64,000 nt of DNA from positions 1 through 64,000 of the forward strand of contig CADDZJ010000007.1 of NCBI GenBank assembly GCA_902812415.1, read 5' to 3'. The stretch is from Acidobacteriota bacterium. GTDB taxonomy: Bacteria; Acidobacteriota; Terriglobia; UBA7540. Under the pieces are notes generated by a model. It searched no databases and was not told the origin of the DNA. It worked only from the letters and a program-made list of their open reading frames with translations. This document shows, piece after piece, positions 52,654-64,000 of the stretch. Every line of letters begins with the position of its first letter. Within the stretch, counting starts at the first letter, position 1. Made by a program: the position numbers and the translations under genes.

Positions 52654-55248
52654 GTGACGCGACGCGATTTTGTAAAGATCGGAGCGGCGGTCTTCACAGC
52701 CCGTGGAGTCGCCAGCGCCGAACAGAATTCAGGCTCTGCTTCAGAGGGCGCTCTTCACTCGCGCGAGCTGCATGGATGGAGCGCCAGGCGCATCTGGGCA
52801 ACGCCGGACGGCCTTGAACCCAATACGTACGTCTATTTTCGTCGGACGTTCGTTCTGGAAGAAATTCCGCGCGCCGAGACTCCAGTCCAGGTTTCGGCCT
52901 GCACGGAATACGCGCTTTATGTGAACGGTCACAAGGTGGGATTTGGCCCGCCCATATCCGACCCGCGACGCCGTTATTTCGACCTTCGCAATATCCAGCC
53001 TTACTTGCGCAAGGGCCGCAACGTGATGGCCGCCCGCGTTTATTCCCTGGCAACGGCTACTGAAGACACCAGAAAAGAGCGAGGATGGTTTCTGCTACAG
53101 GGCAAAATACATGATCGAAGCCGGGAAATTGCTCTTGATACCCATTCTGAGTGGAGATGCCTCGTCTCAGATGTTTGGCAGCGCGATGCGCCCAGGCAAA
53201 GTTTCCAACTGCATTATGTTGAAATCGCCGACCTTCGCAGGGAGCCTGTAGGCTGGAACGAGATCGGCTTTGATGACGCGCAATGGCGACCCGCGATCGA
53301 GCTTGCTGAGCGCGACACAGAAGGCCTGGTTCAGCGCGAAATGGGTGAGATTGATGAAGTCTTCATGCCTGTGGCGAGCGTCGCAGGCGCGGCGGAAGTC
53401 CAAAGACAAACGCAGTTTCCGATGCCGGCTCTCCAGGTGAATGCCGAGAAATTCCAGTCCATTCAAACCGTCAGGCTCGAAAACCTCTCATCGCTTGGCG
53501 CGAACCATCCTGAAGCCTCGGTCGAAACTCCCGTCGACGGGCGCGATGCCGCCATGGTTCTCGACATGGGCCGAATGGTTTTGGGCTGCCCGTTTTTTGA
53601 GGCAGAGGGCGGTGAGGGCGCAACCGTTGATGTCTCAATCTCAGAATATCTGAAAGACGGGCGCGTGCTCGCTTCCCGTGAAATCACGCCAAACGAGCGG
53701 ACGAATCTCACCGATCGCATCACGCTGCGCCCGGGCCGGAATGCGTGGCAGCGGAACGATTACAATGGATATCGCTATATTCAGCTCACGGTTCGTGGGG
53801 CGATGAAGCCTTTGACGATCCGGAAGGTTGGGACGATCGAACGCCGCTACCACTTCATGCAGGAGGCTATGTTTCGTTCGTCAAACGCCGTGCTCGACCG
53901 CATCTTTTCGGGCAGCAAATGGACGCATCGCGTCAACACGCATTGGGGCTATTGCGGCTCGGCGTGGCGCGAGCACGCGCAGTGGTCAGACCTGGCCTGG
54001 CCCGCCATGAATCTGGTTGTGTTTTCCGATCCGCCCATGATGCGCTACTATCTCCGGCAGATTGCTCTGGGCCAGAATGACGAAGGCCGCATGCAATTTC
54101 CTTATCCCGGAAATCTCGGAATCGAGTTGCCGGAGCAGACCATGTGGCTGGCGGACGACTTGTGGAAATGCGGCCTCTATTTCAACGATCTCAAGCTGGT
54201 CAGCGACCTGCTCCCCGCGATGGAGAAGGCCAATAAATGGTTCAGGAAGCATACGACTTCACGGGGATTGATCACGACTGAAAACTGGCCCAGGATGTGG
54301 CTGGTGATTGATTGGGGATATCCGTACGTCAATAACCCGGCGCCAGGTGAACTGGCGACTTTGAACCTGATCTATTACAACTTTCTCCGCTCCGTGGAAC
54401 GCTGCGCTCATCTCATTGGGGAAGAAGTCATCCGGAAGAGTTTCGAGAGGCAGGCGGATTCGCTGCGCGAAACGATTCAGGAAGTGTTTTTCGACGCCGA
54501 TGAAGGCCGCTATTATGAAAAGCCCCAGCGGCAAGCTCCCTCTCAGTTCGCCGGCGCTCTCGCCGTGAAATACGGTGTCGTGCCTGAACGGTATCGCCAG
54601 CAAGTGTTCCAGTCCGCCACAGGCTCGGAGTTGCGGCCCGGGAAAGCCAGTCCCTGGTTCATGTATAGCGTCCTGGAAGCTTTCGCACAGGCCGGGCGAT
54701 ACACCGATGCTGTTTCGGCGATCTGCCGCTATTGGAGTTCGTTTCTCAACGCCGGAGCAACCGTTTACTGGGAGCTCTGGAACATTCCGGGCGAGGATGT
54801 ACATCCGATTCCCGGCTACACGCGCGAAATGGCGGCGCGCACGATCACCTATTCAAGCGGGCCGGCACCTTACGTGGTGAATTACATTCTGGGAGTGGAG
54901 CCCCTCGCGCCAGGGTTTCAGGAAGCTCTGATCGCGCCTCACTACAGCGGGCTTGAGTTTGCGGAGGGAGAAGCGCCGACGCCTTTCGGAGCTATCCGGG
55001 TGCGCTGGCAGCGCAATCCGGCTGCGAAGATGACCGAGGTTTATGTAACCGTTCCGGAAGGCGTCAAGGCTCAGATGCGGCTTCCGTTCGATAAAACCGA
55101 GCCGATCGTTTGGGTGAACGAGCAGGCGCTTTACAATAGGCGGCAATTCTTCAAGAATCCGCTCATCGAAAAAGCCACGCAGGCGGAAGATTTCCTTCAA
55201 TTTCAGATCGCGCCAGGGTCTTATTATTTCAAAAGCAGCGCCATGTGA
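52654..55248 (+). CDS. Exported alpha-L-rhamnosidase, GH78
   Basis: 864 residues from the GTG at 52654, which yields the Tat signal MTRRDFVKIGAAVF; the upstream GTG at 52606 would start inside a terminator. N-terminal beta-sandwich domains include YFRRTFVLEEIP and YALYVNGHKVGFGPP. The (alpha/alpha)6 catalytic barrel follows, with CGSAWREHAQWSDLAWPAMN, which corresponds to the GH78 acid-residue loop, and AGATVYWELWNIPGED. A C-terminal beta domain begins near GVEPLAPGFQEALIAPHYSG. It cleaves terminal alpha-L-rhamnose from glycans or glycosides. No strong ribosome-binding site is seen for either start. Confidence 0.88.
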   Translation: MTRRDFVKIGAAVFTARGVASAEQNSGSASEGALHSRELHGWSARRIWATPDGLEPNTYVYFRRTFVLEEIPRAETPVQVSACTEYALYVNGHKVGFGPPISDPRRRYFDLRNIQPYLRKGRNVMAARVYSLATATEDTRKERGWFLLQGKIHDRSREIALDTHSEWRCLVSDVWQRDAPRQSFQLHYVEIADLRREPVGWNEIGFDDAQWRPAIELAERDTEGLVQREMGEIDEVFMPVASVAGAAEVQRQTQFPMPALQVNAEKFQSIQTVRLENLSSLGANHPEASVETPVDGRDAAMVLDMGRMVLGCPFFEAEGGEGATVDVSISEYLKDGRVLASREITPNERTNLTDRITLRPGRNAWQRNDYNGYRYIQLTVRGAMKPLTIRKVGTIERRYHFMQEAMFRSSNAVLDRIFSGSKWTHRVNTHWGYCGSAWREHAQWSDLAWPAMNLVVFSDPPMMRYYLRQIALGQNDEGRMQFPYPGNLGIELPEQTMWLADDLWKCGLYFNDLKLVSDLLPAMEKANKWFRKHTTSRGLITTENWPRMWLVIDWGYPYVNNPAPGELATLNLIYYNFLRSVERCAHLIGEEVIRKSFERQADSLRETIQEVFFDADEGRYYEKPQRQAPSQFAGALAVKYGVVPERYRQQVFQSATGSELRPGKASPWFMYSVLEAFAQAGRYTDAVSAICRYWSSFLNAGATVYWELWNIPGEDVHPIPGYTREMAARTITYSSGPAPYVVNYILGVEPLAPGFQEALIAPHYSGLEFAEGEAPTPFGAIRVRWQRNPAAKMTEVYVTVPEGVKAQMRLPFDKTEPIVWVNEQALYNRRQFFKNPLIEKATQAEDFLQFQIAPGSYYFKSSAM

Positions 55249-55301
55249 AAGATGGTGGTGGCGCGGGTGACAAAGTTCATAGTATTGTCATCAAACAGCG
55301 C

Positions 55302-56819
55302 ATGAGACCCTGGCGTTTTCTTTTTTTCCTCTTCGCGCTCGGCCTTGCAGCCACAGCGCGGCCCCTTACGCGCGAACTGCCGCCGCTTGTGCCGCCCCCG
55401 CAGCCGGTGGCGGTGCCGACGCCGGCGGTTGAAACCCTTTCGAATGGTCTAAAGGTCGTCATCCTCGAACGCCACACCCTTCCGATCGTCACGCTGACGC
55501 TTGCTGTTCGCGCCGGAGCCGAGGCCGATCCGCCCGGGTTCCCGGGCACGGCGCAGTTTGTGGCGTCGCTGCTGAATGAAGGAACCACGGATCGAAGCGC
55601 CTTCGAGATGGCGGAGGCTCTTGACGGCGCGGGCGGAAGCCTGGATACCGAAGCCGAGTGGAATGATTCTTACGCCAGTCTCAGCGTCTTGAGCGACCAC
55701 ACGCCGCTGGCTTTCGATCTGCTCTCCGATATGATCATCCGCCCCGCCTTCGCTCCGGACGAGGTTGAACGCATCCGTCGGCAGACCCTCTCCGCGCTCA
55801 GCATTCTGCGGCATGATCCGCAGTATCTGGCTGACGCACTCTTTGAGAGAGTAGCTTTTTGGGGAACGCCTTACAGTCATCCGGCCGACGGGGTGGAAGA
55901 ATCCATACGACGCCTCACGCCGGCCGACCTTCACGCCTTTCATGCCCGGTATTATCGCCCTTCCAATGCCATCCTGATTGCAGTAGGGGATCTAAACCCG
56001 AATCGAGCCATGAGCCTTGCCCGGAAATTTTTCGGCGGGTGGGCGAACGGGAGCCTTCAAGAAGAGACCCGTAGGGTGAGTCCTGCTCAGACGAATGTGC
56101 CGCTGAAGGGCATGGCACAACAACCGGAATCAGCGAGCATTGGCCAACGCCAGGTGATCGTCATCGATGACCCTCATGCCGTCCAGACAGAAATTCGCAT
56201 TGGCCATCCCGCCATCAGCCGGGCGAGTCCTGATTACGGTGCGCTGACGATCGCCAATCAGGTGCTCGGCGGGCCGGCGGAGAATCTTCTATTTAGCGTC
56301 CTCCGCAGCCGTCGGGGGCTGGTTTATACGGCATCCAGCGAACTCCTCTGTTATCGTGATGCGGGCGCCTGGGAAGTAAAGACCTCGACGCGCACCGACG
56401 AGACGCTCAAGACCGTGGAGCTGATTCTCGATCAGATGAAACGCCTGCGCGAGCATTCCATTCGCCCTGAAGAGTTGAAGGTGGCTCAGGATTATCTGGT
56501 GGGGCATATGGCGCTGGATTTTGAAACTTCACAGCAGGTTGCCGGGCAGTTGCTGAAGCTTCTCATCGACGGCTTGCCGCTGGACTATTGGAGCCGCTAC
56601 CCGCAGGAAATCCGTAGCCTGACGGAAAACGACGTTTGGCAAGCTGCGCGCGAGTACTTCAATCCACGCACGGCCGAGATTGTGCTGGTCGGCAACGCTC
56701 AGAACTTCAAGAAAGACTTGAAGAAATTTGGCCTGGTGCGCATCATTCCTCTGGATGAGGTGGATTTGGCTTCGGCAACCCTCGAGCAGCCTGCGGGCGG
56801 CGTCGTAAGCCGCCATTGA
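55302..56819 (+). CDS. M16-family peptidase homologue lacking the HxxEH zinc motif
   Basis: 505 residues from the ATG at 55302, which begins a signal peptide (MRPWRFLFFLFALGLAATAR); a GTG at 55245 overlapping the rhamnosidase stop is the alternative. Two M16 half-domains are visible. Where active enzymes have HFLEH, this one has PGTAQFVASLLNEGT, so no zinc site. The C-terminal RSRRGLVYTASSELLCYRDA matches the substrate-binding R-x-Y region of non-catalytic M16 subunits. Such proteins normally pair with an active partner encoded next door, but none is found here. Probably periplasmic; role uncertain. Confidence 0.85.
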   Translation: MRPWRFLFFLFALGLAATARPLTRELPPLVPPPQPVAVPTPAVETLSNGLKVVILERHTLPIVTLTLAVRAGAEADPPGFPGTAQFVASLLNEGTTDRSAFEMAEALDGAGGSLDTEAEWNDSYASLSVLSDHTPLAFDLLSDMIIRPAFAPDEVERIRRQTLSALSILRHDPQYLADALFERVAFWGTPYSHPADGVEESIRRLTPADLHAFHARYYRPSNAILIAVGDLNPNRAMSLARKFFGGWANGSLQEETRRVSPAQTNVPLKGMAQQPESASIGQRQVIVIDDPHAVQTEIRIGHPAISRASPDYGALTIANQVLGGPAENLLFSVLRSRRGLVYTASSELLCYRDAGAWEVKTSTRTDETLKTVELILDQMKRLREHSIRPEELKVAQDYLVGHMALDFETSQQVAGQLLKLLIDGLPLDYWSRYPQEIRSLTENDVWQAAREYFNPRTAEIVLVGNAQNFKKDLKKFGLVRIIPLDEVDLASATLEQPAGGVVSRH

Positions 56820-56877
56820 CGCCCGCATCAGCCCCGTGCAGCAACGGACAATCTTTCGAGTCCGTAAAGGAATTTCC

Positions 56878-57858
56878 ATGAAAAGGCTCGCGCTTGCCAT
56901 TCTGGGATTGGCAGCCCTAGCCGTTCTGGCGGAGGGCGTGATCAGCCTGGAGATGCCTCTGCATCAGCCCGGCCATCTTTTCGCGCAGCTCTTCGCGCTG
57001 GCCCTCACGCTTGGAGCCTTTGCAGCCCTCACGGACTCCCGCATGGTTAAATGGCTTCGGCATCAGGCTGCCCAGTCAACGCGCGACGCCATCGTTCTCC
57101 CGCTTCCCTTGTTGCTTCCATATTTCATCGAAGCGTTCGGCTCAGAAACATTTTCGTGGCGAGGAGTGGGAAAGCTGACGGCCTACATTCTGGTTCCCAC
57201 ACTGCTCCTGCTGCCTGACCGCTTGCGCGCGGCGACGCGTGTCGGTTGGCGCGATTTTGCGGCCATGCTGGCGCTTGGCGCCCCGGTTTCCGCCGGCTGG
57301 CTGCACGGCATCTGGTTTGCCTTTGGCGGCGCTCCTTTCTTCCGCCCGCTTTATTCAGTTTGCGCCGGAGGCTATGCCTTCCTGGCCGTTCGCAACTTGC
57401 AGGACGTAGGCTATCGCCTGTTGCTCCGCAAGCAGGATTTCATACACGGCCTGGCGAATTTTGCGGGTTTTGCCATTGTCGGCATTCCGCTGGGCTACGT
57501 TCTTCACTTCATTCACTTTCACAACGGTCATGCTTCAGTGGCGAGCTTTGCCGTCGATTTTATTGGCATATACATTACGATAGCAATACCAGAAGAATTT
57601 CTGTTCCGAGGCATTCTGCAGAACTTCCTGGAAAAGAGTTTCGAGGGGCAGGGAAGAGGAAGAAAGGCCCTGATCATTGCGTCGGTAGTATTTGGCGCAT
57701 CACACTTTCACCATCCGCCTGTGCCGAACTGGCGATATTGCATCATGGCCACGGTTGCAGGCCTGTTCTACGGCAACGCTTATCGCGAGCGGAGGCGGCT
57801 TTCTGCCTCCGCCTTCACTCATGCCTTGGTGGACGCCACATGGCGCTTCTGGTTCTGA
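56878..57858 (+). CDS. CPBP-family intramembrane metalloprotease
   Basis: 326 residues, about eight membrane helices. The three CPBP/CAAX-protease motifs are visible: IPEEFLFRGILQNFL (Glu239/Glu240 and Arg), FGASHFHH and FTHALVDATW. The ATG at 56878 follows AAAGGA and starts with a hydrophobic segment MKRLALAILGLAALAVLAEG. Prokaryotic members cleave membrane or peptide substrates and some serve in bacteriocin immunity; the substrate here is unknown. 58 bp after the M16-like gene, same strand. Confidence 0.9.
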   Translation: MKRLALAILGLAALAVLAEGVISLEMPLHQPGHLFAQLFALALTLGAFAALTDSRMVKWLRHQAAQSTRDAIVLPLPLLLPYFIEAFGSETFSWRGVGKLTAYILVPTLLLLPDRLRAATRVGWRDFAAMLALGAPVSAGWLHGIWFAFGGAPFFRPLYSVCAGGYAFLAVRNLQDVGYRLLLRKQDFIHGLANFAGFAIVGIPLGYVLHFIHFHNGHASVASFAVDFIGIYITIAIPEEFLFRGILQNFLEKSFEGQGRGRKALIIASVVFGASHFHHPPVPNWRYCIMATVAGLFYGNAYRERRRLSASAFTHALVDATWRFWF

Positions 57859-59918: not shown

Positions 59919-61883
59919 TCAGGCGGGCTGTGCCTGGGCAGGCACTTCCTGCGGAACTTCGGTTTTTCCCAGGACGTAACTCCTCAGTTCCTCGGTGGTC
60001 CGGGGCCGACGGCCAATGGGGAGCGTCAAAAGATAATTACCTTCGGCCATGAGCACATCAGCCGCCACCAGTTCGTCAATCACGCGGTCGAGCGTGCCGT
60101 CGGCAACTTCCCTCGGATACCGAGCGGAAAGGTCAGCGGCCAGTGTCCGGCGGCTGCTGATTTCGTCGCAAAGCAGAACCACGTCCTGGTGCAGGTCGGC
60201 GAGATGCAAATAGCGACCTTCGTCCTGCCGGGTGTCGGTGACGCGGAGGAAACCGGCGCCGATCATGTACTCATAGAGCGGTGGCTGTTTTTGCCGGTGG
60301 GCAGCCTGCCAGGAGTCAATCAGGGCTTCCATGGTCTTCATGTAGTCCCCAGCGGGTGGAATCCGATTGGATCGGAAGCTGAAAAAATAGGCAATCTTTT
60401 GAGGGTCCGCCAGTCCTGCAGGAAGATTGAAAGCGTAGTCCGGCCGGATCATGTGAGTCTCCACCCCGAAACTCTCTCTTTTCTCATACAGGGGCGCGAA
60501 CCGGTGCATCTCAATCGGAACAATGTTATTGATGGGCGGCTGCAGGTGGCGGAGATGCGGGATGAGACGCGCCATCTCAAAGTACCATTCCGCCTGCTCG
60601 CCCGGGAAGCAGGCCAGGATATTATACGAGGCGTCGATCCCGTACTCCTTGCACCAGCGCAGGAACTGGACGTGCCGGATGGCCATGGTCCCCTTTTTCA
60701 TAAGCTGGAGCAAGGGCGTGGAAAAGGATTCGATTCCCGGCTGGATCATGGCGACGCCGGCTTCGCGCATGAGCTTGATCTGCCCTTTTTTCATGTCAGC
60801 GCGAACTTCGTAGAAGATCTCAAGGTCAAGGTCCAACTCTTTCAGGCGGCGAAAGAGTTCATTGCAGTGCCATCGTGAGATGATCCAATCGGTTGCTGTG
60901 AGCCGAACGACGCCGTATCGCGCGGAGAGCGTCACAATTTCACGGATGACGCGGTCAACGTCCTTGGCTCGGAAACCCATCAGCTCCGGATTGATCCCGC
61001 AGAATACGCAGTGATTCTTTGCGCCCCACCAGCAACCTCGTGAACTCTCAAACGGGATAAATTCGATGTTGAAGACCCGGCCGGTCTCTTTGAATAGTCT
61101 TTCCTTTTCCGCAAAGAAGTCATCGTAGTCAGGCGAGGGACTTTCGTTCATGTTGGCGAGCGGCCTTCCGGGGATCAGGACCAATTCGCCGTTGATGACG
61201 CTCGTAACTCCCGGAATTCCATCCGTGGGCTCGCCGGCCTTGACTCGCTTCAAATAGGCGCGAAACGATTCTTCCGCTTCGCCCATAAACACATGGTCGA
61301 TAATGTGCGGCAGAGCGCGATGATATTCCTGGCCCATCTCGCCGTCGAAACATGCGCCGCCCATCAGGACCTGAATTTCGGGCCGAACTTTCTTGATGCG
61401 GTTTGCCAGAGCGATGCTGCTCATCACCTGATTGAACGTGGCGGTGAAGCCCACAATATCGGGGTTCGCGCTCAGGACGCGCTCCAACACTTTATCGAGA
61501 AACTGAGGAACCTCCTCGTCGCGCAGATGCCTCAGGAAATTGAGATCGGCAAATCGCGTCTTCCACGGGTCGCGTTTTGACTCATTCTGGTAGCCCTCGC
61601 TCAGAATTCGCAGGTATTCATCGCTCTGCAACGTTTCTTTGCCGAAAACATCAACCGAAAAGAGGTGCTCTGAAAGGCCATAAAGCTGGCGTTCATCCGC
61701 GAAGCGGCCGGCAACTTCAAAGCCTACGCTTGCGGCCATGTCGAGATTGGCGTAGAAAACCTGCACCGGGACGTTATTTTCAACGCAGAGCTGGCGCAGA
61801 ATGGCCAACGCAATGGAGGGCCGCTGTCCGGTGGCCCACGGCATATCCAGGAAAAGTACACGCGGTTTCTCGATGCCTGCCAT
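59919..61883 (-). CDS. RiPP-maturation radical SAM protein with B12-binding domain
   Basis: 654 residues. The N-terminal third (1-240) looks like a cobalamin-binding Rossmann domain (PDIVGFTATFNQ, EIQVLMGGACFDGEMG, VFMGEAEESF). The radical SAM core carries the unusual cysteine spacing CX7CX2C (near residues 284-295) in SSRGCWWGAKNHCVFCGIN. This is the signature of the RiPP-maturation radical SAM/C-methyltransferase family; known members methylate carbon atoms of precursor peptides. A C-terminal domain of about 200 residues follows. AGGAG precedes the ATG. It is the third of three radical SAM genes on this strand, 31 bp after its neighbour. No precursor peptide gene is visible nearby. Confidence 0.88.
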   Translation of the reverse strand: MAGIEKPRVLFLDMPWATGQRPSIALAILRQLCVENNVPVQVFYANLDMAASVGFEVAGRFADERQLYGLSEHLFSVDVFGKETLQSDEYLRILSEGYQNESKRDPWKTRFADLNFLRHLRDEEVPQFLDKVLERVLSANPDIVGFTATFNQVMSSIALANRIKKVRPEIQVLMGGACFDGEMGQEYHRALPHIIDHVFMGEAEESFRAYLKRVKAGEPTDGIPGVTSVINGELVLIPGRPLANMNESPSPDYDDFFAEKERLFKETGRVFNIEFIPFESSRGCWWGAKNHCVFCGINPELMGFRAKDVDRVIREIVTLSARYGVVRLTATDWIISRWHCNELFRRLKELDLDLEIFYEVRADMKKGQIKLMREAGVAMIQPGIESFSTPLLQLMKKGTMAIRHVQFLRWCKEYGIDASYNILACFPGEQAEWYFEMARLIPHLRHLQPPINNIVPIEMHRFAPLYEKRESFGVETHMIRPDYAFNLPAGLADPQKIAYFFSFRSNRIPPAGDYMKTMEALIDSWQAAHRQKQPPLYEYMIGAGFLRVTDTRQDEGRYLHLADLHQDVVLLCDEISSRRTLAADLSARYPREVADGTLDRVIDELVAADVLMAEGNYLLTLPIGRRPRTTEELRSYVLGKTEVPQEVPAQAQPA

Positions 61884-61914
61884 GGAGATCTCCTGCTTTA
61901 AAGGTTTCGTTCAA

Positions 61915-63102
61915 TTACCGGCTCGCGCATCCTCGATCTTCCTCTGCCGGGTCTGCGCCATGATTTGCCAGGCGGGCTGCCAGTTCAAATCCTTCGATCT
62001 GCTTCCCCTGATCCTGGAACTCCTTAACAGCCCGCTGAAGCATGCCGGGCTCGTTCAGAAAATTACGCGCCAGAATGCCCACTTTCAGACGGTTCTCCGG
62101 CGATGAGGCGCGCTGAGCGAGATATTCAGCCCATTGGGGATTTGTGACGATCTTGGGGCAAAAATCACAGACATCTTCCGGCATCGGGCCGAGCGATTCA
62201 CGGCTGACGCCCGCTTCTTCCAGCCATTGCATCACGGGACCAAACCCAATGACCCGGAGCATTTGAAGAAGGGGATGAGCCATATAATCCGCATGAATTT
62301 CCGTGAGCGGACGGCTGCGCGCGTCGCCAAACTGGAACGGGTGGCGGCGCTCTTCCACCAGGCTGATGCAGCAAGGGGCCATCGAGCCGTCGTAGCGGAT
62401 CACAAGACCTTTCGTCAGGCACGGTTTGGCGAACGTTGAGTCATCCGTCGAGTTGAGGATCGGCAAATCGGAGGCGCGGCCCACGCTTCGGACTTTTTGG
62501 GCGCAGATTTCCGATTCCTCGGCAAAACTCAGCATGAAAGCCTTGAGCTCACGGTCACGCTCGGTCATCGGTTCGTGATGAGCGAAGCGCAGCACGGCTT
62601 CCCGGCCACGCGCTTTGGCGGTCTGATAGGCGGTTCGGACGCGTTCGATGCCCACGTAGGGTTCATGGTAAGCGTCAATTGAGATATCCCAGATCTGGAT
62701 GCCCGGCAGGCCGTCGAGCACTCTCGCCGCGACGTGCTCGGAAACAGCCCAGTGCGCTGCCGTAACCACCCCGCAGGTCATGCCCGCAGCGGCTGCGGCG
62801 GCGGAAAGAATCTCCAATTGCTCGCGCGCCAAGAGCGGCTCCCCGCCCGTGAAACTCACCAGGCGGATGCCGTATTCGTAGAGGTCGGGCATCTGGCCGG
62901 CGTAGTGGCGCGCTACATCCACCGGCATGGTTGTGTGTCGCAGCCCCGGCCCGGCTTCGACGATGCAGTGCGCGCACTTCAGGGGACAGGCGAGCGTCAG
63001 GTTAAACGTCAGATGAATAGCCGCAGCGGATTGCAAGCTTGCAAGCTGCCGTTCAGTCAGAAGAACTCCACTTCGCGGTTCAATCACAGCGGCCTGGGTC
63101 AT
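61915..63102 (-). CDS. Radical SAM/SPASM-like protein
   Basis: 395 residues. The cluster-binding CX3CX2C is CPLKCAHC (Cys39, Cys43, Cys46), and the SAM-binding GGE motif follows in VSFTGGEPLLA. The C-terminal part has additional cysteines (KPCLTKGLVIRYDG, MAPCCISLVEE and DVCDFCPKIV) that could hold an auxiliary cluster as in SPASM proteins. GAGGAG precedes the ATG. It is tightly packed between a paralogue upstream (34 bp) and the B12-type enzyme downstream (31 bp). Substrate unknown; a peptide is likely by context. Confidence 0.88.
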   Translation of the reverse strand: MTQAAVIEPRSGVLLTERQLASLQSAAAIHLTFNLTLACPLKCAHCIVEAGPGLRHTTMPVDVARHYAGQMPDLYEYGIRLVSFTGGEPLLAREQLEILSAAAAAAGMTCGVVTAAHWAVSEHVAARVLDGLPGIQIWDISIDAYHEPYVGIERVRTAYQTAKARGREAVLRFAHHEPMTERDRELKAFMLSFAEESEICAQKVRSVGRASDLPILNSTDDSTFAKPCLTKGLVIRYDGSMAPCCISLVEERRHPFQFGDARSRPLTEIHADYMAHPLLQMLRVIGFGPVMQWLEEAGVSRESLGPMPEDVCDFCPKIVTNPQWAEYLAQRASSPENRLKVGILARNFLNEPGMLQRAVKEFQDQGKQIEGFELAARLANHGADPAEEDRGCASR

Positions 63103-63136
63103 CGGTTCTCCTCAAAATCAAGGCGCGAACAATCCG

Positions 63137-64000
63137 TCAGCCCATCATGGGCTGCTTCATGAATTGCTCGCCAAAAACAAATTCGGTGAGCGCCGCAATC
63201 TTTTGCCGATTTTCCGGCCTCTCGACTCTCTGCCGGATTTCAGCGGCAATCTCGGGATCGCGCCACAGCTTCGTGCAGCATTCGCACGGGTGCGTGGGAA
63301 CTTCTTTCAGAAAGCTGTGTTCAGAATGCATCTCCGCCACCCAGCCGAGAATCGGCGCAAAACCTACGGCGCGAATTAACTGGAGCAGAGGATCGGCGCA
63401 CCAGCGCTGGTGCGCCTCGGCGAGACCTAAGGTATCGGCATGCCCGTACTGGAAGGGGTGGCCCTTGCGCTCGTCCACAAGTCCTGCGCAACAAGGGGCC
63501 ATGGTTCCGTCGAATCGAAACACCATGCCATCCGGGATGCAGGGCCATGCGGGCGTCTGGCTGGTTCCGTTCGTTGTTTCCACGGAGGCGCCGCGCCCCA
63601 TCGGGATGACCGGCTGCACCACCACCGGCACATCCTCCGGGAGCTCTGAACGAAGCTCAATGTAAAGTTTCCGGTGCTCCGCGCTGAGCGGCAAGGACGC
63701 GGCCATGCGCACCATGGCGCGGCGTCCGGTTTCAAGTGCCGCTCGCGCTGCTCGAAGCGTATATTCCGGCGGAATGAACTCGCGGTGAAAAAGATCAGCG
63801 GAAAGCTGCCAGTTGGAAATGGCGGGGAAGCGGTTCACCGTTTGCCGGGCTGAGGCTTCAGAGCGGGCCCAGTGGCATGCTGTCACCACGGTGCATTCCA
63901 TCCCGGCGCGCATCGCAGCCTCGGAAAGTATGGAAAGCTGTTTCGGAGCCAGCAAAGGCTCTCCGCCCGTAAAGCTAACCAGCCAGACTCCGCGCTCTCG
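63137..64000 (-). CDS. Radical SAM/SPASM-like protein, 5' end cut by window end
   Basis: 287 codons are visible and the frame is open to the window edge, so the CX3CX2C part is missing. It starts in the GGE region (LVSFTGGEPLLAPKQLSILS), which matches the neighbour's LVSFTGGEPLLAREQLEILS, and continues colinear with it. Shared segments include CIPDGMVFRFDGTMAPCC, then DERKGHPFQYG and HPCECCTKLW. It is clearly a diverged paralogue of the protein at 61915. Conserved cysteines support an auxiliary cluster. The operon probably extends beyond the window. Confidence 0.85.
   Translation of the reverse strand, partial: RERGVWLVSFTGGEPLLAPKQLSILSEAAMRAGMECTVVTACHWARSEASARQTVNRFPAISNWQLSADLFHREFIPPEYTLRAARAALETGRRAMVRMAASLPLSAEHRKLYIELRSELPEDVPVVVQPVIPMGRGASVETTNGTSQTPAWPCIPDGMVFRFDGTMAPCCAGLVDERKGHPFQYGHADTLGLAEAHQRWCADPLLQLIRAVGFAPILGWVAEMHSEHSFLKEVPTHPCECCTKLWRDPEIAAEIRQRVERPENRQKIAALTEFVFGEQFMKQPMMG

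Follow-up and report, generated by a model that had tools for sequence, protein, structure and literature searches.

The window analysed here, a 64,000-nucleotide stretch from an Acidobacteriota bacterium (C7:1-64000 of the assembly, on a contig that extends to 69932), carries a group of closely packed radical S-adenosylmethionine (SAM) genes at its upper end, which raises the question of what these enzymes modify and to what product they lead. The original prediction described a three-gene cluster with no visible precursor and expected the precursor gene upstream, beyond position 64000, and a short conserved open reading frame (ORF), PRE, is indeed present there at 64414-64728. The locus is interpreted as a cassette for a ribosomally synthesized and post-translationally modified peptide (RiPP), in which D-residues and C-methyl groups would be installed on a cysteine-free precursor that is released by a dedicated aspartyl protease, and the full combined mechanism is given a probability of about 0.58. 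The RiPP assignment by itself, as originally proposed, is regarded as highly probable, being supported by the conserved precursor ORF beside the maturases in all four known clusters.

Extent of the cassette

The genes are listed below (contig coordinates).

58580..59797, minus strand: two-domain retropepsin-like aspartyl protease (DTGA...DSGA), with an N-terminal helical region and two stretches of Pfam Asp_protease_2
59919..61883, minus strand: B12-dependent radical SAM C-methyltransferase, TIGR03975 (B12-binding domain, residues 122-210; radical SAM domain, 281-440)
61915..63102, minus strand: R2, second EpeE-like radical SAM/SPASM protein, paralogue of R1
63137..64000, continuing to ~64213 past the window, minus strand: R1, EpeE-like radical SAM protein with CX3CX2C and PCC, cut by the window edge
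64414-64728, minus strand, outside the window: PRE, candidate precursor of 104 amino acids (aa), with orthologues at the same place in three other loci (L020-L022)
65017-65706, minus strand, outside the window: Crp/Fnr-type regulator, farther upstream than PRE

ORF calling placed R1, R2 and the B12 enzyme at their predicted positions on the minus strand, and both predicted gaps proved exact, with 34 bp between R1 and R2 (63103-63136) and 31 bp between R2 and the B12 enzyme (61884-61914). The start codon of R1 is uncertain, a GTG start being proposed at ~64213 on the contig. While the packing of the three genes was thus confirmed, the cluster is larger than had been described: the PRE gene, 201 bp upstream of R1, and the aspartyl protease gene, 121 bp from the B12 enzyme, also belong to it, since three other genomes show the two genes in synteny with the rest. 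The match of the B12 enzyme to TIGR03975 is far beyond chance.

When genome contigs were scanned with the B12 enzyme, three close relatives (55-66 % identity) emerged, each accompanied by a full cassette, in the Acidobacteria metagenome-assembled genome (MAG) SJ808 (L020), the Nitrospira MAG ACE_NIT7 (L021) and the Alphaproteobacteria MAG Co_bin.5 (L022); the remaining matches share 30-35 % identity (Herpetosiphon, Sphingomonas, Rhodospirillales). The assignment of MAG contigs is uncertain, L022 being the least sure (read coverage of 1.6 in its title), and the three phyla are those of the record labels. The gene order in all three relatives is precursor, R1, R2, B12 enzyme, R3 and protease, and the window copy retains this order with R3 alone absent. 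In a tree of R1, R2 and R3, the R2 and R3 groups are well supported and the R1 group is weaker (78/67). Because the three paralogues form separate groups, the duplications must be older than the spread of the cassette, with the paralogues travelling together. The SPASM-like pair originally noted is thus present in the window, but probably as the remainder of a triplet, the simplest reading being that R3 was lost in the window lineage. A remnant of R3 was considered and rejected, as the 121-bp gap leaves no room for it and the genome contains matches to R1 and R2 only.

The predicted maturation enzymes

The B12 enzyme matches TIGR03975 ('RiPP maturation radical SAM C-methyltransferase') with 546.9 bits against a cut-off of 281.85, over positions 1-606 of the 606-position model, and the PF02310 B12-binding and Pfam Radical_SAM domains also score above their cut-offs. 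The predicted CX7CX2C motif is located at C284/C292/C295 and is shared without change by all eleven aligned TIGR03975 proteins, while no other full-length copy of the enzyme is encoded in its genome. On these sequence grounds the protein is a clear member of TIGR03975, a family to which PoyB and PoyC presumably also belong, and is predicted to methylate peptide carbons, in agreement with the B12-type RiPP maturase of the original prediction.

R1 and R2 are 42-43 % identical and, as had been noted, share the GGE and MAPCC regions (FTGGEP and MAPCC in both). When a profile built from eleven R1, R2 and R3 proteins was searched against the PDB, EpeE crystal structures were the top matches (E=1.5e-24 over 303 positions), the next family being MoaA (3.7e-6). 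The AlphaFold2 model of R2 (pLDDT 84) likewise aligns best with EpeE (8ai6; Z 27.8, rmsd 3.0, 307 residues aligned), with the next family at Z 16.9. In EpeE, Cys223 is reported to be the likely hydrogen donor (PMC8326336); it is mutated in 8ai3/8ai4, and the C223A and D210A entries agree with the chain numbering used. This residue aligns to the second Cys of PCC, which corresponds to C245 in R2 and, in P0002 numbering, to C243 in R1. The Cys is invariant in 11/11 of the R1/R2/R3 proteins, as are the four other non-radical-SAM Cys residues of the same region of EpeE. The profile, the R2 model and the invariant Cys223 equivalent together indicate that R1-R3 are EpeE-like in fold and key residue, and epimerisation by R1 and R2 is therefore considered likely.

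The most serious alternative, although an unlikely one, retains the same RiPP cassette but assigns to the EpeE fold of R1-R3 some other radical chemistry at C-alpha or side chains, i.e. C-C, C-N or ether crosslinking, desaturation or cyclopropane formation. The best NCBIfam model for R1, TIGR04078 (YydG), has a cut-off of 300 bits, which is missed by R1 (57.7), R2 (45.5) and R3 of L021 (64.3), and R1-R3 fall outside the curated YydG equivalog and are not filed as its members. Asp210 of EpeE is replaced by Gly in 11/11 proteins, and crosslinking systems, too, commonly have two or three paralogues that act on a single precursor. SPASM-type enzymes, moreover, shift their reaction easily between relatives. 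On the other hand, the invariant hydrogen-donor Cys would be needless in a crosslinking enzyme, and the fold is far closer to EpeE than to the crosslinkers SuiB, CteB, SkfB and PqqE (Z 15-17). Thioether (sactipeptide/ranthipeptide) chemistry is excluded by the precursors, all four of which contain 0 Cys, and cyclopropane enzymes of the TvgB/TigE type were rejected, as TigE (8vpo) reaches a Z of only 12.8.

The candidate precursor and the proposed maturation protease

The PRE gene encodes MPDQSQLKYIVSGNVADLSQVRIANLAKPFEQLTIGELVQLRPGGESADSYNITAVGSDITVSTSSKLADLAQLSAQQAVRSEIAANSVRTALANSQVVAKFNP and has an AAAGGAG site ahead of its ATG; a ribosome-binding site precedes all four orthologues. It is present as one copy per genome and adjoins the maturases in the same direction in 4/4 loci, so that the proposed comparison of homologous neighbourhoods did yield a conserved small ORF in every known cluster. 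The orthologues, which range from 102 to 136 aa with C-termini of unequal length, share 26 invariant positions (n=4). Their pairwise identity is 74-84 % at residues 27-45, 30-67 % at residues 46-72 and 6-36 % from residue 73 to the end, the conserved N-terminal block being KPFEQLTISELVQLRPG. Third positions dominate the codon changes among the four genes, and PRE is under protein-level constraint, with the profile of a leader followed by a more variable core. A Cys/Thr/Ser- or Pro-rich core had been anticipated; the small ORF was found, but its lack of Cys is incompatible with a core of the thioether type.

PRE could be placed in no Pfam or NCBIfam family. At E<=1, Pfam returned no family for PRE and the L021 copy, and NCBIfam no relevant family for all four precursors; in these searches neither a nitrile-hydratase-like (NHLP/proteusin) leader nor a Nif11 leader domain was detected. 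A simple pattern search revealed no FNR/CRP boxes ahead of PRE. The precursors of two loci (L021:4571-4678 and L022:4350-4457) carry an extra acidic C-terminal tail (PEDDIF...DPFKA and PSDDVF...DPFKA, respectively), which the window and L020 precursors do not have.

The protease is the last gene of the block, is syntenic in 4/4 cassettes and is encoded by a single copy in the genome. It matches PF13650 in two stretches (57.4 bits versus a cut-off of 24.3) and is assignable to clan AA, and all four cassette copies retain both catalytic Asp residues (D161, D303) and both D[ST]GA motifs unchanged. Its identity to the window copy is 27-33 %, as compared with roughly 44-66 % for the modifying enzymes, which indicates faster divergence. 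From the synteny of the gene we infer that the protease cuts PRE. No description of an aspartyl protease of this two-domain kind in RiPP maturation was found in the literature searched.

The organization of PRE and the protease also bears on an improbable reading, which replaces the secreted peptide antibiotic by a conserved small molecule serving as cofactor or signal. This molecule would be cut out of the D-x-Y...AV..D stretch of PRE, much as PQQ and mycofactocin are obtained from their precursors. The invariance of D49, Y51, A55, V56, T64 and S65 within residues 46-72 across the labelled phyla would suit such a product, as would the protease gene at the end of the cassette and the lack of a conserved exporter; nevertheless, this region is just 30-67 % identical, the cassette is found very rarely, and epimerisation would hardly be expected in a cofactor route. 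Less credible still is the idea that PRE is a helper (a separate leader, chaperone or recognition protein) and that the real substrate is encoded elsewhere in the genome. The N-terminal part of PRE is indeed leader-like and best conserved, and its C-terminal length varies, but the four loci showed no further conserved small ORF, and PRE occurs once per genome, at the head of the maturase operon, where a precursor is usually located.

Proposed pathway and distribution

According to the preferred scheme of epimerisation and C-methylation, PRE would be synthesized with an N-terminal recognition region, formed by the conserved block, and R1 and R2 would work on residues C-terminal to it. As in EpeE, a 5'-deoxyadenosyl radical would abstract the alpha-hydrogen of a chosen residue, and the second Cys of PCC would hand back a hydrogen from the opposite face, yielding D-amino acids. 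The TIGR03975 enzyme would methylate unactivated carbons, plausibly in Val, Ile or Ala side chains, in the same region of PRE, whereupon the two-domain aspartyl protease would free the modified part. In the relatives, R3 would serve as a third epimerase-like paralogue for one or more further sites. The precursors of the three R3-bearing loci contain AVTDN, and the window copy, without R3, contains AVGSD; R3 may thus act near the AVTDN motif and may have been lost in the window lineage together with TDN.

Several observations weigh against this scheme, in addition to the missed TIGR04078 cut-off, the replacement of Asp210 and the ready shifts of reaction among SPASM-type enzymes. Only four precursors are at hand to define the leader/core border and the modification sites, and the link between R3 and TDN is based on the same number of sequences. 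The structure model of the protease (pLDDT 59) did not resolve the second domain and was not used. In the B12 enzyme, a weak PqqD/RRE-like stretch at residues 555-610 does not reach the threshold (E=0.036) and was detected in 1/11 members, and such a domain is not claimed. Finally, the cassette includes no conserved exporter.

Among known systems, the EpeE (YydG) epipeptide system of Bacillus subtilis, EpeXEPAB, resembles the cassette in the EpeE fold, the CX3CX2C motif, the Cys223 donor and the other Cys residues of the C-terminal cluster region. It differs in having one such enzyme rather than two or three paralogues, whereas the cassette adds the B12 methyltransferase and the aspartyl protease, has a precursor of no described family and Gly in place of D210, and shows no conserved ABC transporter. 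The polytheonamide/proteusin pathway, with the PoyD epimerase and the PoyB/PoyC C-methyltransferases, is similar in its predicted outcome, i.e. D-residues combined with side-chain C-methylation. PoyC, a Val/Ile C-beta methyltransferase, has the same unique CX7CX2C motif as the cassette B12 enzyme (PMC11285071). Unlike in that pathway, the PRE leader is not nitrile-hydratase-like, as judged by the lack of a family match, and an aspartyl protease accompanies the enzymes.

The original remark that the gene combination matches no described pathway agrees with the literature searched, where no paper was found that brings together an epimerase of the EpeE type, a B12 methyltransferase and an aspartyl protease; this is weak evidence of novelty, most subscription papers being outside the search. 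It is tentatively suggested, at somewhat less than even odds, that the cassette represents a new class of RiPP. Epimerases of the EpeE rather than the PoyD type would then act, together with a PoyC-type methyltransferase, on a new precursor family and would have arrived independently in evolution at chemistry resembling that of polytheonamide, the modified peptide being released by a dedicated two-domain aspartyl protease. If the scheme is correct, EpeE epimerisation and PoyC-like C-methylation, known from separate pathways, meet in one five- or six-gene cassette, and an aspartyl protease joins the list of RiPP maturation proteases. A Cys-free precursor of ~100 aa would then offer a tractable system for studying how the modification sites of a single precursor are shared out among several epimerases; the window cassette, a natural variant without R3, provides a ready comparison.

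With four examples found, the cassette counts as rare. R1 homologues of the cassette kind are encoded in 1/396 genomes of the phylum, four others having relatives of 24-29 % identity only. PRE was not detected beyond its known host among 81, 175, 143, 193 and 385 genomes (sets partly overlapping), nor were further cassette members found in the relatives of each host (80, 174, 142, 192 and 384 more genomes, again with partial overlap). Viral contigs yielded pattern matches to PRE and no confirmed relative, and plasmids a single distant match to R1, a Streptomyces radical SAM protein (28.7 %). The phylum also has YydG-like genes that are more distantly related (L013-L018; wider regions, L034-L038); neither PRE nor a TIGR03975 enzyme nor the cassette protease lies beside them. 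TIGR03975 (rSAM_ocin_1) enzymes of the same methyltransferase family are encoded in Sphingomonas, Herpetosiphon and other genomes of the phylum, where they exceed the cut-off in 26/396. However, ~37 such neighbourhoods in the phylum contained no PRE, no clear EpeE-like partner and no two-domain cassette protease, the matches seen being a single further radical SAM protein (E=1e-6) at L081 and a single retropepsin-PDZ protein (E=1e-7) at L106. The gene combination is therefore particular to this cassette and not a general habit of the TIGR03975 family.

In the latter locus (L106:639-4939; G172:C1032), the TIGR03975 gene overlaps the retropepsin-PDZ protein gene by 4 bases, so that an aspartyl protease adjoins this methyltransferase family for a second time. 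A different genome of the phylum exhibits an unusual pile-up of five TIGR03975-type genes within 13.5 kb (L085:5005-18320; G021:C53), and in Sphingomonas two TIGR03975 genes lie face to face (L025:6824-10683 and L026:6935-10349), one L026 copy being in pieces. Convergent to the cassette, the window encodes an M16-like peptidase and a CPBP/CAAX-type membrane protease (55245-57858, as read from the sequence only), neither of which was seen at the other cassette ends that were read. A separate dense cluster outside the window, in the same genome, comprises six radical SAM genes on one strand within ~12 kb (C24:9643-21299), and 4/6 of these are weakly similar to the B12 enzyme.
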